64,000 bases of DNA from Methanolinea mesophila. Lineage in GTDB: Archaea > Halobacteriota > Methanomicrobia > Methanomicrobiales > Methanospirillaceae. Below, piece after piece: positions 11,517-64,000 of this stretch. Both the position numbers and the translations under genes were made by a program. The notes under the pieces are model-generated. The model did not search any database and was not told the DNA's origin. It worked only from the letters and a program-made list of their open reading frames with translations. Each line of letters begins with the position of its first letter. Positions within the stretch are counted from its first letter, which is position 1. The stretch spans positions 1,493,529 to 1,557,528 of the forward strand of contig NZ_JAGGKR010000001.1 of assembly GCF_017873855.1 (NCBI RefSeq), written 5' to 3'.

Positions 11517-14450
11517 GTGGGTTTTTTCTCTTGGCTGAAAAGAAAGGATGAATCACGGGAATCTTCAGAATCAGGTGGGATGCAGAACTCCTCCGAACGA
11601 GATCTACGAAACCGTTGCGACCTTGTTTTATCCTTAATTGAAAAAGGAAATTTTAAGAAAGCTTTGCCGCTCGCAGATGGGGTACTCGAAGATATCAGCA
11701 AGTATTCGGGAAAGGAAAGTCCGGATTATGCGATTGCCCTGAATAATTTGGCATACATTCACCTGGAGGTTGGTAATTATGCGACGGCAGAATCCTTATT
11801 TAACCAGGCAATAACCCTCTGGCAACAATACGGAGTTGAGGACCATCCGGACTACGCGACGGCCCTCGATAATTTGGCTTCAATTTATCAGCTAAAAGGG
11901 AATTATCAAGGCGCAGAATCTCTGTATAAGCAGGCTATCGGAATAAGGAAAAAAGAGCTCGGCGAGGATAACCCGGATTATGCAATGAGCCTGAACAACC
12001 TGGGAATGTTGTATCGAAGTCTGGGTAACTATGAAGAAGCAGTTCCACTGATCAGGCAGACAATAGAAATCGTCAGAAAGACACTCGGTGAAGATCATCC
12101 AGATCACGCAACATATCTGAACAATCTAGCTGAGTTATACAGAGAAATGGGAAATGCCAAAGCAGCCGAACCTCTAATATTTAGGGCAATCAATATCCAT
12201 AAAAAAACAATTGGAGAAGATCACCCCGATATTGCAATAGATTTGAACAATCTTGCATTGGTCTACCAGGATATGGGTGACTATAGAGAAGCTGAAACTT
12301 ATTTTCAAAAGTCACTCAGTGTAGTACGAAAGACTCTGGGTCAAAATCATCCTGAATATGCTTTATTCTTGTATAATCTTGCGAATTTATATTTGGAGAG
12401 TGGAGATTATGAATCGGTTGAGGATCCACTCCAGAAATCCATGGAAATCTGGAGGAGAAATGGGGCTAATAGCTTGGAATATGCTCGATGCCTGAATACA
12501 CAGGCCTGGTTATCCAGACATATGGGTCATTATCAGGCTGCGGAACCACCACTTCGGGAGGCAATTGAGATATACAAGTCAGCCTTAGGTGAAGACCATC
12601 CGGATTATACTCAGCTCCTTCATAATCTGGCAGATCTGTGCATTGCGACGGGTCGGATTGATGAGGGTTATAGACTGATGAATATCGCAAACAAAACCGA
12701 AACCAAACTTCTTGAACAAGTACTGGTTATTGGTTCTGATCAACAAAGATTATCATTTTTAGATAGTATAGGAGGAAATTACGACAAATTTCTTTCCGTG
12801 ATTTTTTCTTTCTGCTCTCAATCACCCCCCGCGCTATCAAGAGCGTATGAGCTGGTTCTTAAAAGAAAAGCTATTGGTGCCGAAGCGTTCGCGGTTCAAA
12901 GAGACGCCATCCTTGGAGGAAAATATCCTCAATTTAGAGAACAGCTTGGCAGATTGCGTGAGTTAAAAATGCAGATTGCTCAAACAATTCTCGCAAGTCC
13001 GGGAATTGATCATTCTGATCAACAGGATGGGCAATTGGAAGAATGGAAGGCCGAGAGTGAACGAATTGAATTTGAACTTGCTGATAACGCACCTGAAATG
13101 AAATTCGAATTGCATCTCTCGGATACCGATCAAAAAGACATTGACAAAAATCTTCCTCCTGAATCCGTTCTTCTTGAATTCGTTTGTTTCGATCCCTTTG
13201 ATTTCACAGCATTACCCTCCCGTGGCGAACCACAGTGGTTAGAGGCAAGATATGGTGTATTTATTATAAAGTACGGAGAACCAGGGAAAGTCCAGGTAAA
13301 AGATCTTGGGAAAGCGGATGAAATTAACTCACTTATCCTCCAATTCCAGACCGCATGTGCTGAGTTGGATGAAAATTATCTCGCGTCTGGAGGTGCTCTC
13401 TATGGAAAAATTATCAACCCCCTGGTCCCCCTGATTGGAGATACTCAGAATCTAATAATCGCACCAGATGGAGAGTTGAATCTGCTCTCATTTGATGCAC
13501 TGCCCATAACAGAAGGGGAATACCTCATCGATAAATTTCATATATTTTACATCAGCGTGGGGAGGGATATCATCCGGTTCTCTGCCCGGAGATTGGGAAA
13601 AGTGGGAAAACCACTGGTGATCGCGAATCCAGCGTATGATCTTTCTCAAGGGGATGAACAAACTGGGTTATCAACGGCGTCGTTCAAGAATACCTTTCAG
13701 GATCCTGGCCAGAGAAAACTAGTGGAGAGAATTTCGCGGGACATAGACAGAGAGCGTCTGCATTTTGATCCGCTTCCTGAATCGAAGGTGGAAGGAGAAA
13801 AAATCGCATCCATGCTGAACGTAAACCCACTCATCGGACTGGATGCGGTCGAAGGGAAAATAAAAAGCAGATCTTCCCCTCATATCCTCCATATCGCGAC
13901 ACATGGATTCTTCCTTAAAAATCAATATGATGACACGAAAAATGAATCTACTTCGGAAAAGGCTGATCTAAGACGACTGTCCAGGCTAGAGAATCCGCTT
14001 CTTCGGTCAGGACTTGCCCTGGCGGGTGTAAATACATGGGCGAGAGGCGGGACTTTACCTCCTGAAGCTGAGGATGGGCTCCTAAATGGAGAGGATGTGA
14101 CGGGTCTTGACCTTACAGCGACAGATCTTGTGGTCCTATCGGCATGCGAGACTGGAGTGGGAGAAGTAAAGAAAGGAGAAGGTGTCTTTGGCCTTCGAAG
14201 GGCTTTCATACTTGCCGGAGCCAAGACACTCGTAATGAGTCTGTGGAGTGTGGAAGAAGACTCGACCCGCACAGTAATGATGGATTTTTATCGCAGGATT
14301 CAACAGGGGGTTCCAAAGGCCGATGCTCTTCGTGAAGCAAAACTTGCGCTTAGAAAGTCCTATCCCCATCCGTTTTTCTGGGGACCATTCATCTGTCAAG
14401 GCGATCCTGGTCCGCTGTCAGGGATAGAAGAACTGCCCGATTCGGATTAA
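11517..14450 (+). CDS. TPR-CHAT caspase-like protease
   Basis: 977 residues from the GTG at 11517, giving MGFFSWLKRK after a GGGGGAAG ribosome-binding site; an ATG at 11499 would add six residues but has no such site. Residues 25-390 hold about nine 42-residue tetratricopeptide repeats of the kinesin-light-chain type (LNNLAxxYxxxGNYxxAExL with GEDHPDYA linkers). A helical linker follows. The C-terminal 300 residues form a CHAT domain with the Cys-His dyad, His796 in HILHIATHGFF and Cys877 in VLSACETGVG. CHAT proteins are caspase relatives; in bacteria they act in suicide immunity, including cleavage of gasdermins. The gene is A/T-richer than its surroundings and ends 15 bases from the convergent gasdermin-like gene. 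Confidence 0.93.
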   Translation: MGFFSWLKRKDESRESSESGGMQNSSERDLRNRCDLVLSLIEKGNFKKALPLADGVLEDISKYSGKESPDYAIALNNLAYIHLEVGNYATAESLFNQAITLWQQYGVEDHPDYATALDNLASIYQLKGNYQGAESLYKQAIGIRKKELGEDNPDYAMSLNNLGMLYRSLGNYEEAVPLIRQTIEIVRKTLGEDHPDHATYLNNLAELYREMGNAKAAEPLIFRAINIHKKTIGEDHPDIAIDLNNLALVYQDMGDYREAETYFQKSLSVVRKTLGQNHPEYALFLYNLANLYLESGDYESVEDPLQKSMEIWRRNGANSLEYARCLNTQAWLSRHMGHYQAAEPPLREAIEIYKSALGEDHPDYTQLLHNLADLCIATGRIDEGYRLMNIANKTETKLLEQVLVIGSDQQRLSFLDSIGGNYDKFLSVIFSFCSQSPPALSRAYELVLKRKAIGAEAFAVQRDAILGGKYPQFREQLGRLRELKMQIAQTILASPGIDHSDQQDGQLEEWKAESERIEFELADNAPEMKFELHLSDTDQKDIDKNLPPESVLLEFVCFDPFDFTALPSRGEPQWLEARYGVFIIKYGEPGKVQVKDLGKADEINSLILQFQTACAELDENYLASGGALYGKIINPLVPLIGDTQNLIIAPDGELNLLSFDALPITEGEYLIDKFHIFYISVGRDIIRFSARRLGKVGKPLVIANPAYDLSQGDEQTGLSTASFKNTFQDPGQRKLVERISRDIDRERLHFDPLPESKVEGEKIASMLNVNPLIGLDAVEGKIKSRSSPHILHIATHGFFLKNQYDDTKNESTSEKADLRRLSRLENPLLRSGLALAGVNTWARGGTLPPEAEDGLLNGEDVTGLDLTATDLVVLSACETGVGEVKKGEGVFGLRRAFILAGAKTLVMSLWSVEEDSTRTVMMDFYRRIQQGVPKADALREAKLALRKSYPHPFFWGPFICQGDPGPLSGIEELPDSD

Positions 14451-14464
14451 GTGAATATGCGATA

Positions 14465-15229
14465 TTAAATAATTGTGATACTGGAATCGGGGGGTACGCT
14501 TAGATATTCGACCTTTGGATCCTCGTCGTGCCCTCTAATGGTAAAACAGCCGACCACAGGTCTATTTCCGTCATACCAAATGGGAATCGCTCTAAATGCG
14601 AAAATCACCTTCTTATCGCCTTCATAGGATAATATCTTCTCTTTCACATTATCCTTTTCGGCAGAGAAGTGCCCGGAAGCAGGGGTTCCTATTTCCCCTT
14701 CCATCCCGACTGATTTTCCATCACGATCGTATATTTTTATTTTTACAAGTGCGGTCTTGAGCACTTCAGTTATCACGAATGTTTTTCCTTTAGGGTCCAG
14801 CAATTTTCGGTCTTCTTCATACCTAAGTGATGCATTTGTTACATAATGTCTGACCTGGAGGGGCATCACCATACTCGAATAAACATCTGAAAAAATAATC
14901 TCCGCTGTATCGGCTTTCTCACTTGATACATTGATCCCCATCTTCGCCTGAAACGCTTCAAGAAATGTATTCATGAGTTTAAGGCCCAGTGAAAGGCTTA
15001 CTCGACCTGTATTCTTACCAGAGATATTAACTGCCACATTATCTTCCCCGATTTTTGGAAGCGCCTGCTCGCTCGTAAACATATCTTCAATTGTTCCGAA
15101 CAGTTCAAATTCATCTCCCTGTTCTTCTCTTCCTATAATCATAAGCGGTGAAATGCCTTCCCTGGGTATTTTCAGAATAACATATTTCTCAGAGAACAAC
15201 AATTCCTGAAAAGAGTCTTTGTCTCCCAT
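14465..15229 (-). CDS. Prokaryotic gasdermin-like pore-forming protein (probable)
   Basis: 254 residues, the length of bacterial gasdermins (about 250-270). The N-terminus YVILKIPREGISPLMIIG (residues 16-33), then LFGTIEDMF, LPKIGEDNVAVNISGK, and LSLGLKLMNTF follow the family order. So do a central EIIFSDVYSSMV (110-121), FVITEVLKTALVKIKIYD (151-168) and SYEGDKKVIFAFRAIPIWYD (201-220). A short C-terminal tail (229-254) would be the autoinhibitory peptide removed by a protease. After cleavage such proteins oligomerise into membrane pores and kill the cell. The N-terminal Cys that is palmitoylated in several bacterial members is absent; the only Cys is 228. It faces the TPR-CHAT gene tail to tail. 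The match is by remembered motif order, not a search. Confidence 0.8.
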   Translation of the reverse strand: MGDKDSFQELLFSEKYVILKIPREGISPLMIIGREEQGDEFELFGTIEDMFTSEQALPKIGEDNVAVNISGKNTGRVSLSLGLKLMNTFLEAFQAKMGINVSSEKADTAEIIFSDVYSSMVMPLQVRHYVTNASLRYEEDRKLLDPKGKTFVITEVLKTALVKIKIYDRDGKSVGMEGEIGTPASGHFSAEKDNVKEKILSYEGDKKVIFAFRAIPIWYDGNRPVVGCFTIRGHDEDPKVEYLSVPPDSSITII

Positions 15230-15573
15230 GGCAGTCCCCTTCTGGTAATATGGAATTTATCAATATTGGATATTTAAATTGAATGGGTGATAGGTCCTGT
15301 GTTGTCATTCAAAGCATGAAGATAGATCGATATTTTGTCAATTCCACCAAGTCAGGGGAAGCAGTTCGAGCACGCGTCTGGGAAATAATTCTCCTAGGTG
15401 GATTAAAAAGAAATATTGTGCTGGAAAAGTCAGTATCCATTGATTAATCTCCAGTATTCGGATTCTTGGTATCATATTCAAAGCCAAATATTCTGGATGA
15501 TTCAAACAATTTCACTGATATATAGACCGCTCGACTCCTAAGTACATATTTAGTATTGGTAGTACTATTTGAT
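15230..15573. other. A/T-rich intergenic region beside the gasdermin-like gene
   Basis: 344 bases between divergent genes, still A/T-rich like the defence pair. A 43-codon frame (15316-15447, starting MKIDRYFVNSTKSGEAV) is present but has no ribosome-binding site or recognisable family. TGATATATAG near 15518 may be the TATA box of the next plus-strand gene. Confidence 0.4.
15271..15280 (-). promoter_or_regulatory. TATA-like promoter element of the gasdermin-like gene
   Basis: AATTTAAATA on the minus strand lies about 42-51 bases before the ATG, giving a short leader that contains a GGGGAC ribosome-binding site. Seen by eye. Confidence 0.4.
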
Positions 15574-39542: not shown

Positions 39543-40040
39543 ATGGACGCAACTATTCTCTGGCTGGTCCCAATCGCATATTTCATTCATATTCTCGAGG
39601 AAACCCCGAGGTTTGTCCCTTGGGCGAAGCGGTATCTTTCCGCACCCTCCACGTTCGGCCAGTTCGTCCTCGGGAACGTCATTTTCATGGCGTACGTCCT
39701 TGCCGCGGTGGGCCTCGCAATATTTTATCCAGGCGAATGGACGCTTGTTCTCGGATTGTCTACCGCGGCATGGGCATTTTCAAATTTCCTGATCCATGCA
39801 TCCCTCACCCTCTACACGGGGGAATATTCTCCGGGGGTAGTGACTGCCAGCGCACTCTACGCCCCCATCACCGTATATATCTACGCGACCTTTTTGGAAT
39901 CCGGTATGGTAAGCACATTCGATATCGTCGCGTCCGTCATCATCGGTTTTGCAATCATGTACGTCCCCACGTTCGTACAGGTCTGGAGAGGGAAGAAGAA
40001 CCACCTTTTCGAGGACCACGCTTCACAAAAGAGTGAGTGA
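39543..40040 (+). CDS. HXXEE-domain membrane protein
   Basis: 165 residues with the defining motif His16-x-x-Glu19-Glu20 in the first helix (FIHILEETPRF) and four to five helices (FVLGNVIFMAYVLAAVGLAIF, WTLVLGLSTAAWAFSNFLIH, ASALYAPITVYIYATFLES, IVASVIIGFAIMYVPTFVQVW). Further conserved His (FLIHASLTLY) suggests an intramembrane metal site. The family has no known function. A second member lies at 43147-43803. Confidence 0.85.
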   Translation: MDATILWLVPIAYFIHILEETPRFVPWAKRYLSAPSTFGQFVLGNVIFMAYVLAAVGLAIFYPGEWTLVLGLSTAAWAFSNFLIHASLTLYTGEYSPGVVTASALYAPITVYIYATFLESGMVSTFDIVASVIIGFAIMYVPTFVQVWRGKKNHLFEDHASQKSE

Positions 40041-58207: not shown

Positions 58208-59263
58208 TCATTCATCCGACTCATCAACTACGAGCATCCACACCCGTTTTAAAGGCAATTCTGCCTGAATCTCCGCTGGAAGAAGTTCATAATTTCTGTA
58301 AATAGCCTCGACTAAATCACGACTTTCCCAAAGTCGTACAGAGAAATACCCTTGCTTGGATTCAACTTGGACTGCTTTATTAAATCCGCCCCAACAAACC
58401 AACAATCCCTGTTCTGCCTTAAATGTCTGCATTGAACCTTGCAGGGTTCGATAAACCGTCACATCACAGGGATTTATTTGAGATTTCACTTGGACACAAA
58501 GACGTGGTTGATCAAGACCTAATGAACCACGTCCTGCGAAAATATCTACTCCCCCATCAGGTCCTGCAGGTGAAAATTTCGTAGTCCATCCCTCAGCCTT
58601 CAGGACGGCTTCTACTAATCGAGCAAGTGCATGTCCAGAAAAGCGACTTTGAATTCGAGAGACAATTTGATCGTGTGCAAGATCCGCAAGATTCGGTGAA
58701 CTTGACTCTTCCTCTTCAATAGGGAACGTGGCACCTTGCAGTCGATTACTCGTTTCACCCAAAAAACCGGGATCTGGTTTGCCATTTAACACTGCTTCAA
58801 TCCGTCTTTCTGCATCATTTCGAGAGATATTACAAACTGTAAGGGCCGAACCAAATGAGTAAAGCAGGTCTTGAAGGAACACAGTTCGGGCGATTTCAGG
58901 GCGGATCCACTTGACTGCTCGTGTATGGCGATATTCGTTATCAATTTTAAGGTAACGATAAGGACCTATTACTTTTCCTAATGCAACTTGTGATGTTAGT
59001 TTCCGAGGAAGAACAACGATATCCCCTTCCTTCATTGCGATAGCAAAATTTCCAAGCTGCCCGGCAAAGTTACCTATGGTTCGAGGTTTAAGATCGGGGT
59101 TCGTTTCTTGGATAAGGTTGTATACTTCGTTATATTCCTTCTTACCTTCTAATGAAGGAAATTCTCTAAAACCAATCATCGCCAGGTTGTGATTAAGGAC
59201 ATATTCTTCATCCTCTCCATCACGTCCGGCTCGCACCATAAAGACTTTAGTCCGATCTCTCAT
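58208..59263 (-). CDS. Mrr-like restriction endonuclease
   Basis: 351 residues from the ATG at 59263, preceded by GGAGG seven bases upstream; a longer frame to 59329 lacks such a site. The C-terminal half has the Mrr-cat PD-(D/E)xK core: LVEAVLKAEGW, then GPDGGVDIFAG with the catalytic Asp, and LCVQVKSQ with the QxK motif, followed by LQGSMQTFKAEQGLLVCWGGF. The N-terminal half (NHNLAMIGFREFPSL, GNFAIAMKEGDIVVLPRK) resembles the DNA-recognition part often found with type IV enzymes that cut modified DNA. A/T-richer than the GC-rich neighbours and beside a defence cluster, so probably part of a defence island. Confidence 0.88.
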   Translation of the reverse strand: MRDRTKVFMVRAGRDGEDEEYVLNHNLAMIGFREFPSLEGKKEYNEVYNLIQETNPDLKPRTIGNFAGQLGNFAIAMKEGDIVVLPRKLTSQVALGKVIGPYRYLKIDNEYRHTRAVKWIRPEIARTVFLQDLLYSFGSALTVCNISRNDAERRIEAVLNGKPDPGFLGETSNRLQGATFPIEEEESSSPNLADLAHDQIVSRIQSRFSGHALARLVEAVLKAEGWTTKFSPAGPDGGVDIFAGRGSLGLDQPRLCVQVKSQINPCDVTVYRTLQGSMQTFKAEQGLLVCWGGFNKAVQVESKQGYFSVRLWESRDLVEAIYRNYELLPAEIQAELPLKRVWMLVVDESDE

Positions 59264-59727
59264 GTATTCCTCCAATATACAAACAAATTCATTCCCATAT
59301 TTTTTGTTTAACCAATGAGGTCGGTTCAATTCTCTATAAGAGTTATCATTTCGTTGTTATGCTGAGTTTGGAGAATTATTATTGCATTATGCTGTTTCCA
59401 ACTGGGACATGCATCAGGTTGTTCGATGATTACTTTATAGACTTGGTCGATGTGGTCGATGAGGGTAGACGTTTCTCTCACTACTGTGTCGTATTATATT
59501 GGGAGGTGGCCTAGGCTTCGAGGAATGCAGTCGTCCCGTTCCAGCAGAAGAAGCCGAGGAGGCCGCCGAGAGGGTAAATGTTTCTTTTTGTGAGCTTGTT
59601 CGAGATATCGAGTCGATATGTTGATGATGTGGACGAGGACGAAGGGAAACCGCCCTGAAGGATCGTGGGTGCCACCGAAAGTGTAGACGGTGGTTTGATT
59701 GACAACGAAACCATCATAGGATCTGAC
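59264..59727. other. Intergenic region with decayed hydrolase fragment
   Basis: 464 bases between the divergent endonuclease and YjbQ genes. Apart from the hydrolase remnant at 59518-59650 I see no coding frame, RNA gene or clear operator. Confidence 0.5.
59518..59650 (-). pseudogene. Frameshifted 5' fragment of an alpha/beta hydrolase gene
   Basis: One minus-strand frame reads PFVLVHIINIS, then a second frame reads NKLTKRNIYPLGGLLGFFCWNGTTAFLEA and stops. Together these match PPFVLVHGGDIS and the following RRNIYPPGGHLGPHCWDGTVSFLEA of the intact hydrolase at 44001-44669. The DNA also matches in blocks (GTGGACGAGGACGAAGGG occurs in both). A frameshift and an early stop mark it as a decayed partial copy. 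Confidence 0.8.
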
Positions 59728-60500: not shown

Positions 60501-62813
60501 ATGTTTAACGTAAAATGGGACCCAGATATTAATGGTGTTATTCTTTCAACCGATCTAGGAGACACAAATTATCCCGTTCGTCCCGTTTTCCATGAGGAAT
60601 TAGATCTACTAAAATTTTATGAATTGGGCTTTAAATATCCTAATTGTTCGGAACCCTTAATGTGGGCCGCTGGGAGAACGTATTACTATAAAGGAGAAAA
60701 AATTGCCTTGGTAAAAGGAGGAGGATTCTATAATAATCTTAAAATTGAAAAGTTCGTTGATTCACAAGAAATTGAGCCAATAAACATTTCGAAAATATTG
60801 AAAAAAAATCGGGATAAAATATATTTTTATTCTCATGATTCAATTGATTTTATTCGTGATTGCTATGTTAAATATAAAAATTCAGTTGATGCAATCGCTG
60901 TTTCATTCAGTGGGGGAAAGGATTCGGTTGTTCTCTCAGATTTGGTACGAAGGTCAATTAATCCGAAAGATTTTTTTTTAATATTTGCGGACACGACATT
61001 AGAAAGTCAATATACATATAATTTCATTCAGCAATACATGCATGAAAACTCAAATATAAAGTTTATAACTGCAAAATTTTACAAATCTCAAATAGATACG
61101 TGGCAAAAATTTGGTCCCCCCAGTCGGATCAATAGATGGTGTCATACGGTTTATAAAATAGCACCTATTCGAAAAAAAATTAAAGAGGTTATCGGTATTG
61201 AAAATCCAAAAGTATTGATTTTTGATGGTATTAGGTACGAAGAAAGTTCAAGAAGAAGCCTGTACGCAAATTTACAGGACGGAACTAAAAATATGTTACA
61301 GATGAATATAAGCCCAATAATAAATTGGTCTTGTTTAGAAGTGTTTCTCTATATATTTTCCCGGAACTTAAATTTCAATAAAATCTATCGTTGTGGTTAT
61401 ACTCGAGTTGGATGTATGGTATGTCCATATTCTTCTAATTGGAGTGAATATCTTTCAGGGATAACCCATAGTGAATTGATAAAACCATATTTAGATATTC
61501 TAAAAAAGAACGCTTCATTTGCGGGAATTATGGACATTAATAATTATATCAATCAGGGGGGATGGAAATCTCGAAGTGGAGGAATGGATTTAGAGTTTGG
61601 TGGAAATAGAGTGGGATTCTCTAATTTTGAAAACCAATTAGAAATTTCATTAAAAAATGACTCATCTGATTTCTGGACATGGTTACAATCATTGGGAGCA
61701 GTAACTAAAAGTGAAAAAAATGGTATTCTGAATTATGATGGTAAATATATCCAAATAGTCGAAAAAAAGACTAAAAGCGGGAGGAAAATTACCATTTCGA
61801 ATACGGATAACAATATAAAACTTCTAAATTCTCTAAAAAGAATTGGATATAAATCAGAATATTGTGTTTATTGTCAATCGTGTGAGGCAGTTTGCCCAAC
61901 GGGTGCATTAAAAATTAATAGTAATGTTATTATTGATAGTAAAAAATGCAATCATTGTGAAAAATGCATAAATTACGTGGAAAAGGGGTGCTGGGTTGCC
62001 AAATCTATTACATACGTAGGAATTCAGAAGGTAAAGAAAATGACAGGAAAAGGTTTTAATCGCTATCAAGGATTTGGTTTTGATAAGAACTGGCTTTTAC
62101 TATTTCTGCAAAATAAAAAATGGCAGAATGAAAAAGATAGTAGTCTAGGAAATCGTCAAATTATGGCCTTGAAATTGTGGTTGAAGGATTCACGGTTATA
62201 TGAAAATGAACAACCAACAGAGTTAGGAAAAAAATTAATGAAAATAGTTAATATTGATGATCTATTTCTTTGGTCTGTTATTTGGTCTAATCTCGCTGAA
62301 GAATCTCCTCTTATTCATTGGTTTATAACGAATATTAATGGTTCTTTTACTCGACAGGGTTTAATAAAATCGTTAGCTGAATTTCGGGGACAAACCGAGT
62401 TTAATAGAACAGATGAAAATGCGATTAATTCACTTCTTGCCACACTTAAAAAAACGCCTCTCGGGGAAGAATTGAATCAAGGAAGTGAATCGAAAAAAGG
62501 TTATGAAAAGTATTATTCAAAGGGGATTGCAATTAAGGTTCCAGATTTGGCGATATTGTATACTATTTATCAGTACTCCGAAAAAGTCCAGCGTAAACAG
62601 TTGGTTGTTAGTGAATTTATTAAGAATAAAGATGTAACTCCCTACTGGATTTATGGCCTTGACTATAACATGATTAAAACGGCCCTTACAAGATTATCTT
62701 CACAATATCCTAATTATATTCAAGTCGAATTTTCAGGAAATTTGGATAATGTCAATTTAAACGATAAAATCTCTCTGTTAGAAATTATAGACGAATATTT
62801 AGAAATGAAATAA
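60501..62813 (+). CDS. PAPS-reductase/4Fe-4S/DUF4007-like defence protein (BrxP-like)
   Basis: 770 residues. The PP-loop ATP-pyrophosphatase motif SGGKDS (residues 137-142) starts a PAPS-reductase domain, with WCHTVYKIAPIRKKI, FDGIRYEESSRRS and a Cys cluster CGYTRVGCMVCPYSS near 300. A ferredoxin-type segment follows: Cys455-x2-Cys458-x2-Cys461-x3-Cys465 (CVYCQSCEAVCP) and KCNHCEKCINYVEKGC. Residues about 510-770 look like DUF4007 (FGFDKNWLLLFLQNKKW, FTRQGLIKSLAEF, DYNMIKTALTRLSSQYP). This combination marks the BrxP component of BREX type 4 and relatives of DndC, which modify DNA with sulfur. Strongly A/T-rich and unlike the host; it starts a run continuing past the window. Confidence 0.83.
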   Translation: MFNVKWDPDINGVILSTDLGDTNYPVRPVFHEELDLLKFYELGFKYPNCSEPLMWAAGRTYYYKGEKIALVKGGGFYNNLKIEKFVDSQEIEPINISKILKKNRDKIYFYSHDSIDFIRDCYVKYKNSVDAIAVSFSGGKDSVVLSDLVRRSINPKDFFLIFADTTLESQYTYNFIQQYMHENSNIKFITAKFYKSQIDTWQKFGPPSRINRWCHTVYKIAPIRKKIKEVIGIENPKVLIFDGIRYEESSRRSLYANLQDGTKNMLQMNISPIINWSCLEVFLYIFSRNLNFNKIYRCGYTRVGCMVCPYSSNWSEYLSGITHSELIKPYLDILKKNASFAGIMDINNYINQGGWKSRSGGMDLEFGGNRVGFSNFENQLEISLKNDSSDFWTWLQSLGAVTKSEKNGILNYDGKYIQIVEKKTKSGRKITISNTDNNIKLLNSLKRIGYKSEYCVYCQSCEAVCPTGALKINSNVIIDSKKCNHCEKCINYVEKGCWVAKSITYVGIQKVKKMTGKGFNRYQGFGFDKNWLLLFLQNKKWQNEKDSSLGNRQIMALKLWLKDSRLYENEQPTELGKKLMKIVNIDDLFLWSVIWSNLAEESPLIHWFITNINGSFTRQGLIKSLAEFRGQTEFNRTDENAINSLLATLKKTPLGEELNQGSESKKGYEKYYSKGIAIKVPDLAILYTIYQYSEKVQRKQLVVSEFIKNKDVTPYWIYGLDYNMIKTALTRLSSQYPNYIQVEFSGNLDNVNLNDKISLLEIIDEYLEMK

Positions 62814-62853
62814 AATTCAATACACTTATTTTTAAAAAAAACTATGGACTATT

Positions 62854-64000
62854 ATGGTAGAAGAAAAATATGGAAATTACATTTCTTTAGACGAAAATTT
62901 TAAGGACGTTTTTAGTTTAGAAGATGATATATACAAGGACACAATATGGAGAAGATTCATTTTAACTAATTCTTTCAAAAAAATTCTTGAATCAATAGAG
63001 TATATCTTCTACCCCGAAAATAATGCAAATAAAAAAGCAATAATTCTAACAGGTAAATATGGTGTTGGTAAATCACACGCAACAGCATTTCTTAGTCATT
63101 TGTTATGGGATAAACATGATACAATTCAGGATTTACTTTTAAGAGCCAAAAATGAATTAGAAATTCCAGGAAATATTTTATATCAATTTCGACAAGAGAA
63201 TAGATATTTTCCAGTGATATTGTCAGGAAGAGATTCAAATGATGTATCTGATACAAAATCGTTTGAATATCATCTCCAAATTGGTCTCGAAAGGGCCCTT
63301 CGAGAGAATGAATTTTTAGATCAAATTCAAGAAAAGACGGAATTTGAAAAATATTATTTATGGCTTGAAAATCTCTCAAAGGATCCTTCAAATGCCTCTT
63401 TACTTGAAGTTATATCAGTCAGTATTCAACAAAAATCAGATTTTTCTTCAATTGAAGAATTAAAAAGTGCACTTAAAGATCGAAATTTGGATTCAATCGA
63501 AATGATTAAAAAAATTTTTAGCGATTGGGATATTCCATCGCCTCGCCATTGCGATACATTGGGCTATTACGACTCGGTTTTACAGGAATTACAAAAGATT
63601 GATCGTTCTATACTAGGAATTATTATTTTTTGGGATGAATTTACAACAGTTTTCAATACGGCTGGAAAATATAATGATGCAAATCTGCTTGCACAAATAC
63701 AAACATGGGCAGAAAAATCAGATTCGAATATTTTTCTTTTTTTAGTTAGCCATCAAAGTCCAGAAGCACTTAGAGGACGCTACGAACTAATTAACGATAG
63801 TTTGGCAAAAATTTCAGATAGATTTAAAATTTCTTCAATGGTTATGGAGCAGGTTACAACTTATCACCTAATTGCTAATACTCTTCAAATTGAAAAAAAA
63901 CAAGAATTCTCTGAATTTTTAGAAAAACATGGCTTTTCTAATGACGTGAAAAAAGAAATAGATATTCTATATACTGAAATTTTTTCCGATACTTTTTGTG
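62854..64000 (+). CDS. Large P-loop ATPase, BrxC/PglY-like, N-terminal part (cut by window edge)
   Basis: At least 382 residues from the ATG at 62854, 40 bases after the BrxP-like gene. Walker A is GKYGVGKS (residues 67-74), after a loading region with VFSLEDDIYKDTIWRRF. A Walker B-like IIFWDEFTTVF follows near 265, and LFLVSHQSPEAL lies at sensor-1 position. This layout is that of the very large AAA-type ATPases in BREX (BrxC/PglY) and Dnd/Ssp-like clusters. It is A/T-rich and same-strand with the PAPS-reductase gene, so an operon. The C-terminal part and partners (PglZ, BrxL) would lie outside the window. Confidence 0.8.
   Translation, partial: MVEEKYGNYISLDENFKDVFSLEDDIYKDTIWRRFILTNSFKKILESIEYIFYPENNANKKAIILTGKYGVGKSHATAFLSHLLWDKHDTIQDLLLRAKNELEIPGNILYQFRQENRYFPVILSGRDSNDVSDTKSFEYHLQIGLERALRENEFLDQIQEKTEFEKYYLWLENLSKDPSNASLLEVISVSIQQKSDFSSIEELKSALKDRNLDSIEMIKKIFSDWDIPSPRHCDTLGYYDSVLQELQKIDRSILGIIIFWDEFTTVFNTAGKYNDANLLAQIQTWAEKSDSNIFLFLVSHQSPEALRGRYELINDSLAKISDRFKISSMVMEQVTTYHLIANTLQIEKKQEFSEFLEKHGFSNDVKKEIDILYTEIFSDTFC

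Follow-up and report, generated by a model that had tools for sequence, protein, structure and literature searches.

The window, a 64,000-nt stretch of the Methanolinea mesophila genome, carries a gasdermin gene and a TPR-CHAT protease gene, which we read, with a probability of about 0.8, as a cell-death module of gasdermin and protease that a methanogen of the Methanomicrobiales has acquired. Gasdermins form pores and underlie inflammatory cell death in animals, and the pair has the appearance of a known kind of suicide switch that the archaeon borrowed. It represents a single clean protease-gasdermin arrangement with a predicted cut site, from a near-complete methanogen genome. The features of the locus are as follows.

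11517..14450, + strand: TPR-CHAT caspase-like protease (Pfam CHAT PF12770, 2.6e-67; TPR_12, 2e-99)
14465..15229, − strand: prokaryotic gasdermin, 254 aa (NCBIfam NF051890, PADLOC bGSDM, PDB 8sl0/7n51)
14465..14533, − strand: predicted released tail, 22 residues plus stop codon, placed from the Arg232-Gly233 dipeptide
15271..15278, − strand: archaeal TATA-box-like element TTTAAATA, exact match, upstream of the gasdermin ATG

The gasdermin gene, its protease neighbor and their host

By every sequence test applied, the 254-aa protein is a genuine prokaryotic gasdermin. It scored 162.8 bits against the NCBIfam equivalog NF051890, for which the cut-off is 100 bits, and a search with bacterial gasdermin models, which the original prediction had proposed as a check, was positive (PADLOC bGSDM, 4.5e-42). 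The solved bGSDM of Vitiosangium (PDB 8sl0/7n51) matched residues 16-218 at ~1.5e-20, and a small profile including the 254-aa protein reached the gasdermins of Runella and Bradyrhizobium and, as a weak match, human GSDMD. The original prediction had recognized a gasdermin by four ordered motifs, a family-typical length and a short C-terminal tail, and it proved right on each point. All four motifs are present in the order given, the length of 254 aa compares with 237-268 aa for the solved chains, and homology stops near residue 218, leaving ~30 residues and no large repressor domain. The pore-forming domain spans residues ~1-225 and the C-terminal tail ~226-254. A Pfam-A search returned no match to gasdermin, which reflects a gap of the library and is not counter-evidence. 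Because the AlphaFold2 model from a two-row alignment was uninformative (pLDDT 32), we take the gasdermin fold from homology to the solved chains.

The adjacent protease gene that serves as a further criterion of bGSDM membership is the TPR-CHAT gene. The two reading frames (11499/11517-14450 on the plus strand and 14465-15229 on the minus strand) are convergent and, as had been noted before, nearly touch, with 14 bases from stop codon to stop codon. The protease can be read as 983 aa from ATG 11499 or as 977 aa from GTG 11517; we preferred the latter because a ribosome-binding-like GGGGGA lies 8 nt upstream of the GTG, and the catalytic dyad is therefore numbered His796/Cys877. Kinesin-light-chain-like TPR repeats (~60-390) are followed by the CHAT domain (623-963). 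The dyad is intact, as originally predicted, in the motifs HIATHGFF and SACETG, and both residues are fully conserved in an alignment of six archaeal CHAT proteins from the same order. A single-sequence search of solved CHAT structures with the TPR-CHAT protein gave no match.

The host assembly consists of two contigs with 99% completeness and 0.9% contamination, and the window lies on the 2.38-Mb contig. Since mcrA shares this contig with the pair, the host is a methanogenic archaeon, in agreement with the earlier assignment, and contamination as the source of the pair was ruled out. The earlier remark that both genes are A/T-rich and unlike their neighbors also holds: GC3 is 0.40 in both, versus mostly 0.55-0.88 in the remaining genes of the window, the exceptions being the defense genes at the right end and an ORF at 39955. 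The nearest detected defense genes are 43-45 kb from the pair. At the right end, an A/T-rich PDC-S02 candidate defense gene (58208-59329; PADLOC 9.8e-131) adjoins the start of a BREX system (60501-63999), comprising BrxP (PADLOC 6.3e-223) and the first part of BrxC, which is cut by the end of the window. These BREX genes are strongly A/T-rich (GC3 0.19-0.26).

Exact matches to TTTAAATA occur twice in the window versus 0.53 expected, and at least two were found in 6 of 100 shuffles; the element at 15271-15278 is suggestive only as the gasdermin's own promoter. Given the convergent orientation and this TATA-like element, the gasdermin and the protease are probably transcribed separately and not as one operon.

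Gasdermins and caspase-type proteases in related archaea

Gasdermins are rare in the Methanomicrobiales, being present in 5 of 232 genomes, and a 393-genome sample of the phylum yielded no others. Only one of these five genomes has a CHAT gene, and only one of the 11 CHAT genomes of the order has a gasdermin, the ten others having none. Co-occurrence of the pair across the order, which the original prediction had put forward as a check, is thus not general. Three of the gasdermin genomes (G119, G109 and G114) have no CHAT, C14 or C11 gene that we could find anywhere in the genome. As gasdermins occur without a detectable caspase-type protease and CHAT genes without a gasdermin, the pairing is modular. 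The gasdermin-like proteins of G109 and G114 (L009:9508-10407 and L010:9417-10331) are ~300 aa long and divergent, with 59% identity to each other and a longer tail; that of G109 scored 89.4 bits, just under the NCBIfam cut-off of 100, and this type was not found elsewhere in the order. In G119, the gasdermin is followed by a 272-residue protein with no family match (L007:8363-10286) in a very A/T-rich region, and a scan of the gasdermin's neighbors there revealed no recognizable protease. Solitary TPR-CHAT genes lie in A/T-rich stretches or clusters without a gasdermin in G091, G196, G203 and G111 (L042, L043, L044 and L045).

The host genome contains one gasdermin and one CHAT gene, the latter being the TPR-CHAT gene of the pair, and no C14 or C11 peptidase was found in this 99% complete genome. 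The only detected caspase-type gene of the host therefore adjoins its only gasdermin. Given ~2,600 genes, a number derived from the genome size, we estimate the chance adjacency of two unique genes at ~1 in 1,300, a figure that shared insertion hotspots would raise.

A second archaeal pair was found in G222, a Methanomicrobiales MAG of the same family as the host (JAAYWH010000120.1; L008/L025), which was also the only source of a relative in our scan of genome contigs. The G222 gasdermin, ~26% identical to that of the window, lies 10 bases upstream of a clostripain-family (C11) protease gene in tandem on the same strand (L008:4568-6662). The protease carries HG and NAC motifs and is the sole C11 gene in G222; C11 genes are present in 42 of the 232 genomes of the order. 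Candidate cleavage sites in this gasdermin are Met234-Gly235, 23 residues from the end, and Arg238, 19 residues from the end. Clostripain prefers Arg, which would suit Arg238. The gasdermin/C11 pairing of G222 is independent of the gasdermin/CHAT pairing of the window, and that two distantly related gasdermins of archaea each adjoin a caspase-clan protease, and not the same one, speaks for a functional link and against accident. The review of gasdermin operons names no partner of the clostripain family, and in the open-access literature searched, the single relevant paper with both gasdermin and clostripain deals with caspase evolution (PMC11121540).

The window gasdermin scored 76 bits against a myxobacterial gasdermin but at most 60 bits against any archaeal one, consistent with acquisition of archaeal gasdermins from bacteria on separate occasions. 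Joint transfer of the two genes, as originally suggested, is plausible from their shared GC3 of 0.40, which does no more than suggest it. Homologues of the downstream gene are present in the family, yet since the gene order flanking the pair is not conserved in relatives, an empty site could not be demonstrated. A search of viral contigs, phages and plasmids with the window protein found no relative, and the Vitiosangium gasdermin as query retrieved one cyanobacterial plasmid gasdermin. The latter is encoded on a megaplasmid of Gloeothece verrucosa PCC 7822 (L026:6959-7915), where it is annotated only as a hypothetical protein; it has a Cys2, and a RAMP-superfamily CRISPR gene lies ~5 kb away.

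Proposed activation and alternative explanations

In characterized bGSDMs, a short C-terminal peptide keeps the protein inactive, and cleavage occurs after Leu or Arg ~20 residues from the end (PMC9612521; PMC9079055); in Runella, cleavage needs Leu247 at P1 and Gly at P1′ (PMC9079055; PMC9612521). In the window gasdermin, Arg232-Gly233 lies 22 residues before the C-terminus and is the sole R/L/K/M/F-Gly dipeptide in the stretch examined, and by analogy cleavage by the CHAT protease at this position is plausible. Activation of a gasdermin by a TPR-bearing CHAT protease has been demonstrated for a two-gene cluster of a fungus (PMC12881547). From the known bGSDM cuts, the Arg232-Gly233 dipeptide and this fungal cluster, we infer that activation of a sensor-protease, removal of the tail and pore formation are the most likely course of events. 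The TPR part would sense an infection signal, upon which the CHAT cysteine protease would be activated. It would then cut the gasdermin in the loop ahead of the short tail at the C-terminus, with Arg232 as the most likely P1 residue. With the 22-residue inhibitory tail freed, the N-terminal domain would oligomerize into large membrane pores, and these would kill or arrest the infected cell ahead of virus release. The proposed tail cleavage, pore formation and suicide immunity are supported by the genomic singularity of the two genes and by the second archaeal gasdermin-protease pair.

We consider it unlikely that the pair, although working, instead provides a pore for regulated secretion or release, or acts in conflicts between cells, rather than in antiviral suicide. 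Gasdermins need not kill, and some bGSDM neighborhoods hint at other conflict roles (PMC9612521); the distance of 43-45 kb to the closest detected defense genes also fits such a role. On the other hand, the Lysobacter bGSDM operon protected E. coli from phages when tested (PMC9079055).

Against the module also stand the convergent genes, which form no operon, and the three of five Methanomicrobiales gasdermin genomes devoid of CHAT, C14 and C11. These points would suit a gasdermin that is real and pore-forming but has another activator, with the TPR-CHAT gene as an unrelated mobile gene that landed in an insertion hotspot. The gasdermin's separate promoter-like element agrees with this explanation, and the TPR-CHAT genes that stand alone in A/T-rich stretches of other genomes of the order make chance co-insertion at a hotspot possible. 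However, the sole CHAT gene among ~2,600 genes adjoins the sole gasdermin, both genes share a GC3 of 0.40, another archaeal gasdermin lies beside a different caspase-clan protease, and the fungal TPR-CHAT protease does activate its gasdermin (PMC12881547), so that an unrelated neighbor is improbable. Decaying foreign DNA without a function in the host is very unlikely: the foreign composition, the patchy distribution and a flanking gene order different from that of relatives would allow it, but both frames are intact across 3.7 kb, as is the catalytic dyad, and the translation and promoter signals look archaeal.

If the pair is a cell-death module, its gasdermin would have to insert into the membrane unaided by an N-terminal palmitoyl anchor. 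The majority of bGSDMs, although not all, carry a palmitoylated N-terminal Cys that improves pore formation (PMC9612521). The only Cys of the window gasdermin is residue 228; palmitoylation of an N-terminal Cys therefore cannot aid its membrane insertion. A Cys within the first 20 residues is missing from all five archaeal gasdermins, unlike the cyanobacterial gasdermin with its Cys2; with two close relatives among the five, the comparison is too small for a rule. Archaeal membranes are made up of isoprenoid ether lipids (PMC4244643), and a gasdermin that does without the anchor would be a sensible fit to them. We tentatively propose, at somewhat less than even odds, that archaeal gasdermins are a palmitoyl-independent variant that was taken up several times from bacteria, was fitted to whichever caspase-clan protease was available (CHAT here, clostripain in the relative), and pierces ether-lipid membranes without a fatty-acid anchor. 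The pair makes it testable whether gasdermins form pores in ether-lipid membranes and whether they do so without palmitoylation.

Comparison with known systems

Earlier publications already mention gasdermins of archaea and their clusters with protease genes (PMC9079055; PMC12881547), and the pair thus adds a member to a known type. According to a 2024 review, archaeal gasdermins lack functional experiments (PMC10989679). Among archaea, a close parallel is the G222 locus (JAAYWH010000120.1), where a gasdermin likewise adjoins a caspase-clan cysteine protease; it differs in that the protease is of the clostripain family and on the same strand and in that the gasdermins are only ~26% identical. 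The best solved match is the bGSDM of Vitiosangium sp. (7n51, 8sl0), which is 28% identical and of the same length class but comes from a bacterial host.

The bGSDM of Runella zeae (PDB 7n52; Johnson et al., 2022, via PMC9079055 and PMC9612521) resembles the window gasdermin in that it is short and lacks the large C-terminal domain of the mammalian proteins, is accompanied by an adjacent caspase-like protease, and has an X-Gly site ~20 residues before the C-terminus. In contrast to the window gasdermin, which has no N-terminal Cys, the Runella protein is palmitoylated on Cys3. Its P1 residue is Leu, whereas that of the window gasdermin is predicted to be Arg, and the convergent arrangement of the window genes is unlike that of Runella.

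The protease has the architecture of Csx29 of type III-E CRISPR (Craspase), in which TPR and CHAT parts serve conditional protein cleavage, but the window TPR-CHAT gene has no gRAMP neighbor and its product no sequence match to a solved CHAT structure. The two-gene cluster of Podospora anserina (Clave et al., 2022, via PMC12881547) is eukaryotic and involves another gasdermin subfamily, but follows the same logic, a TPR-bearing CHAT protease activating a gasdermin.
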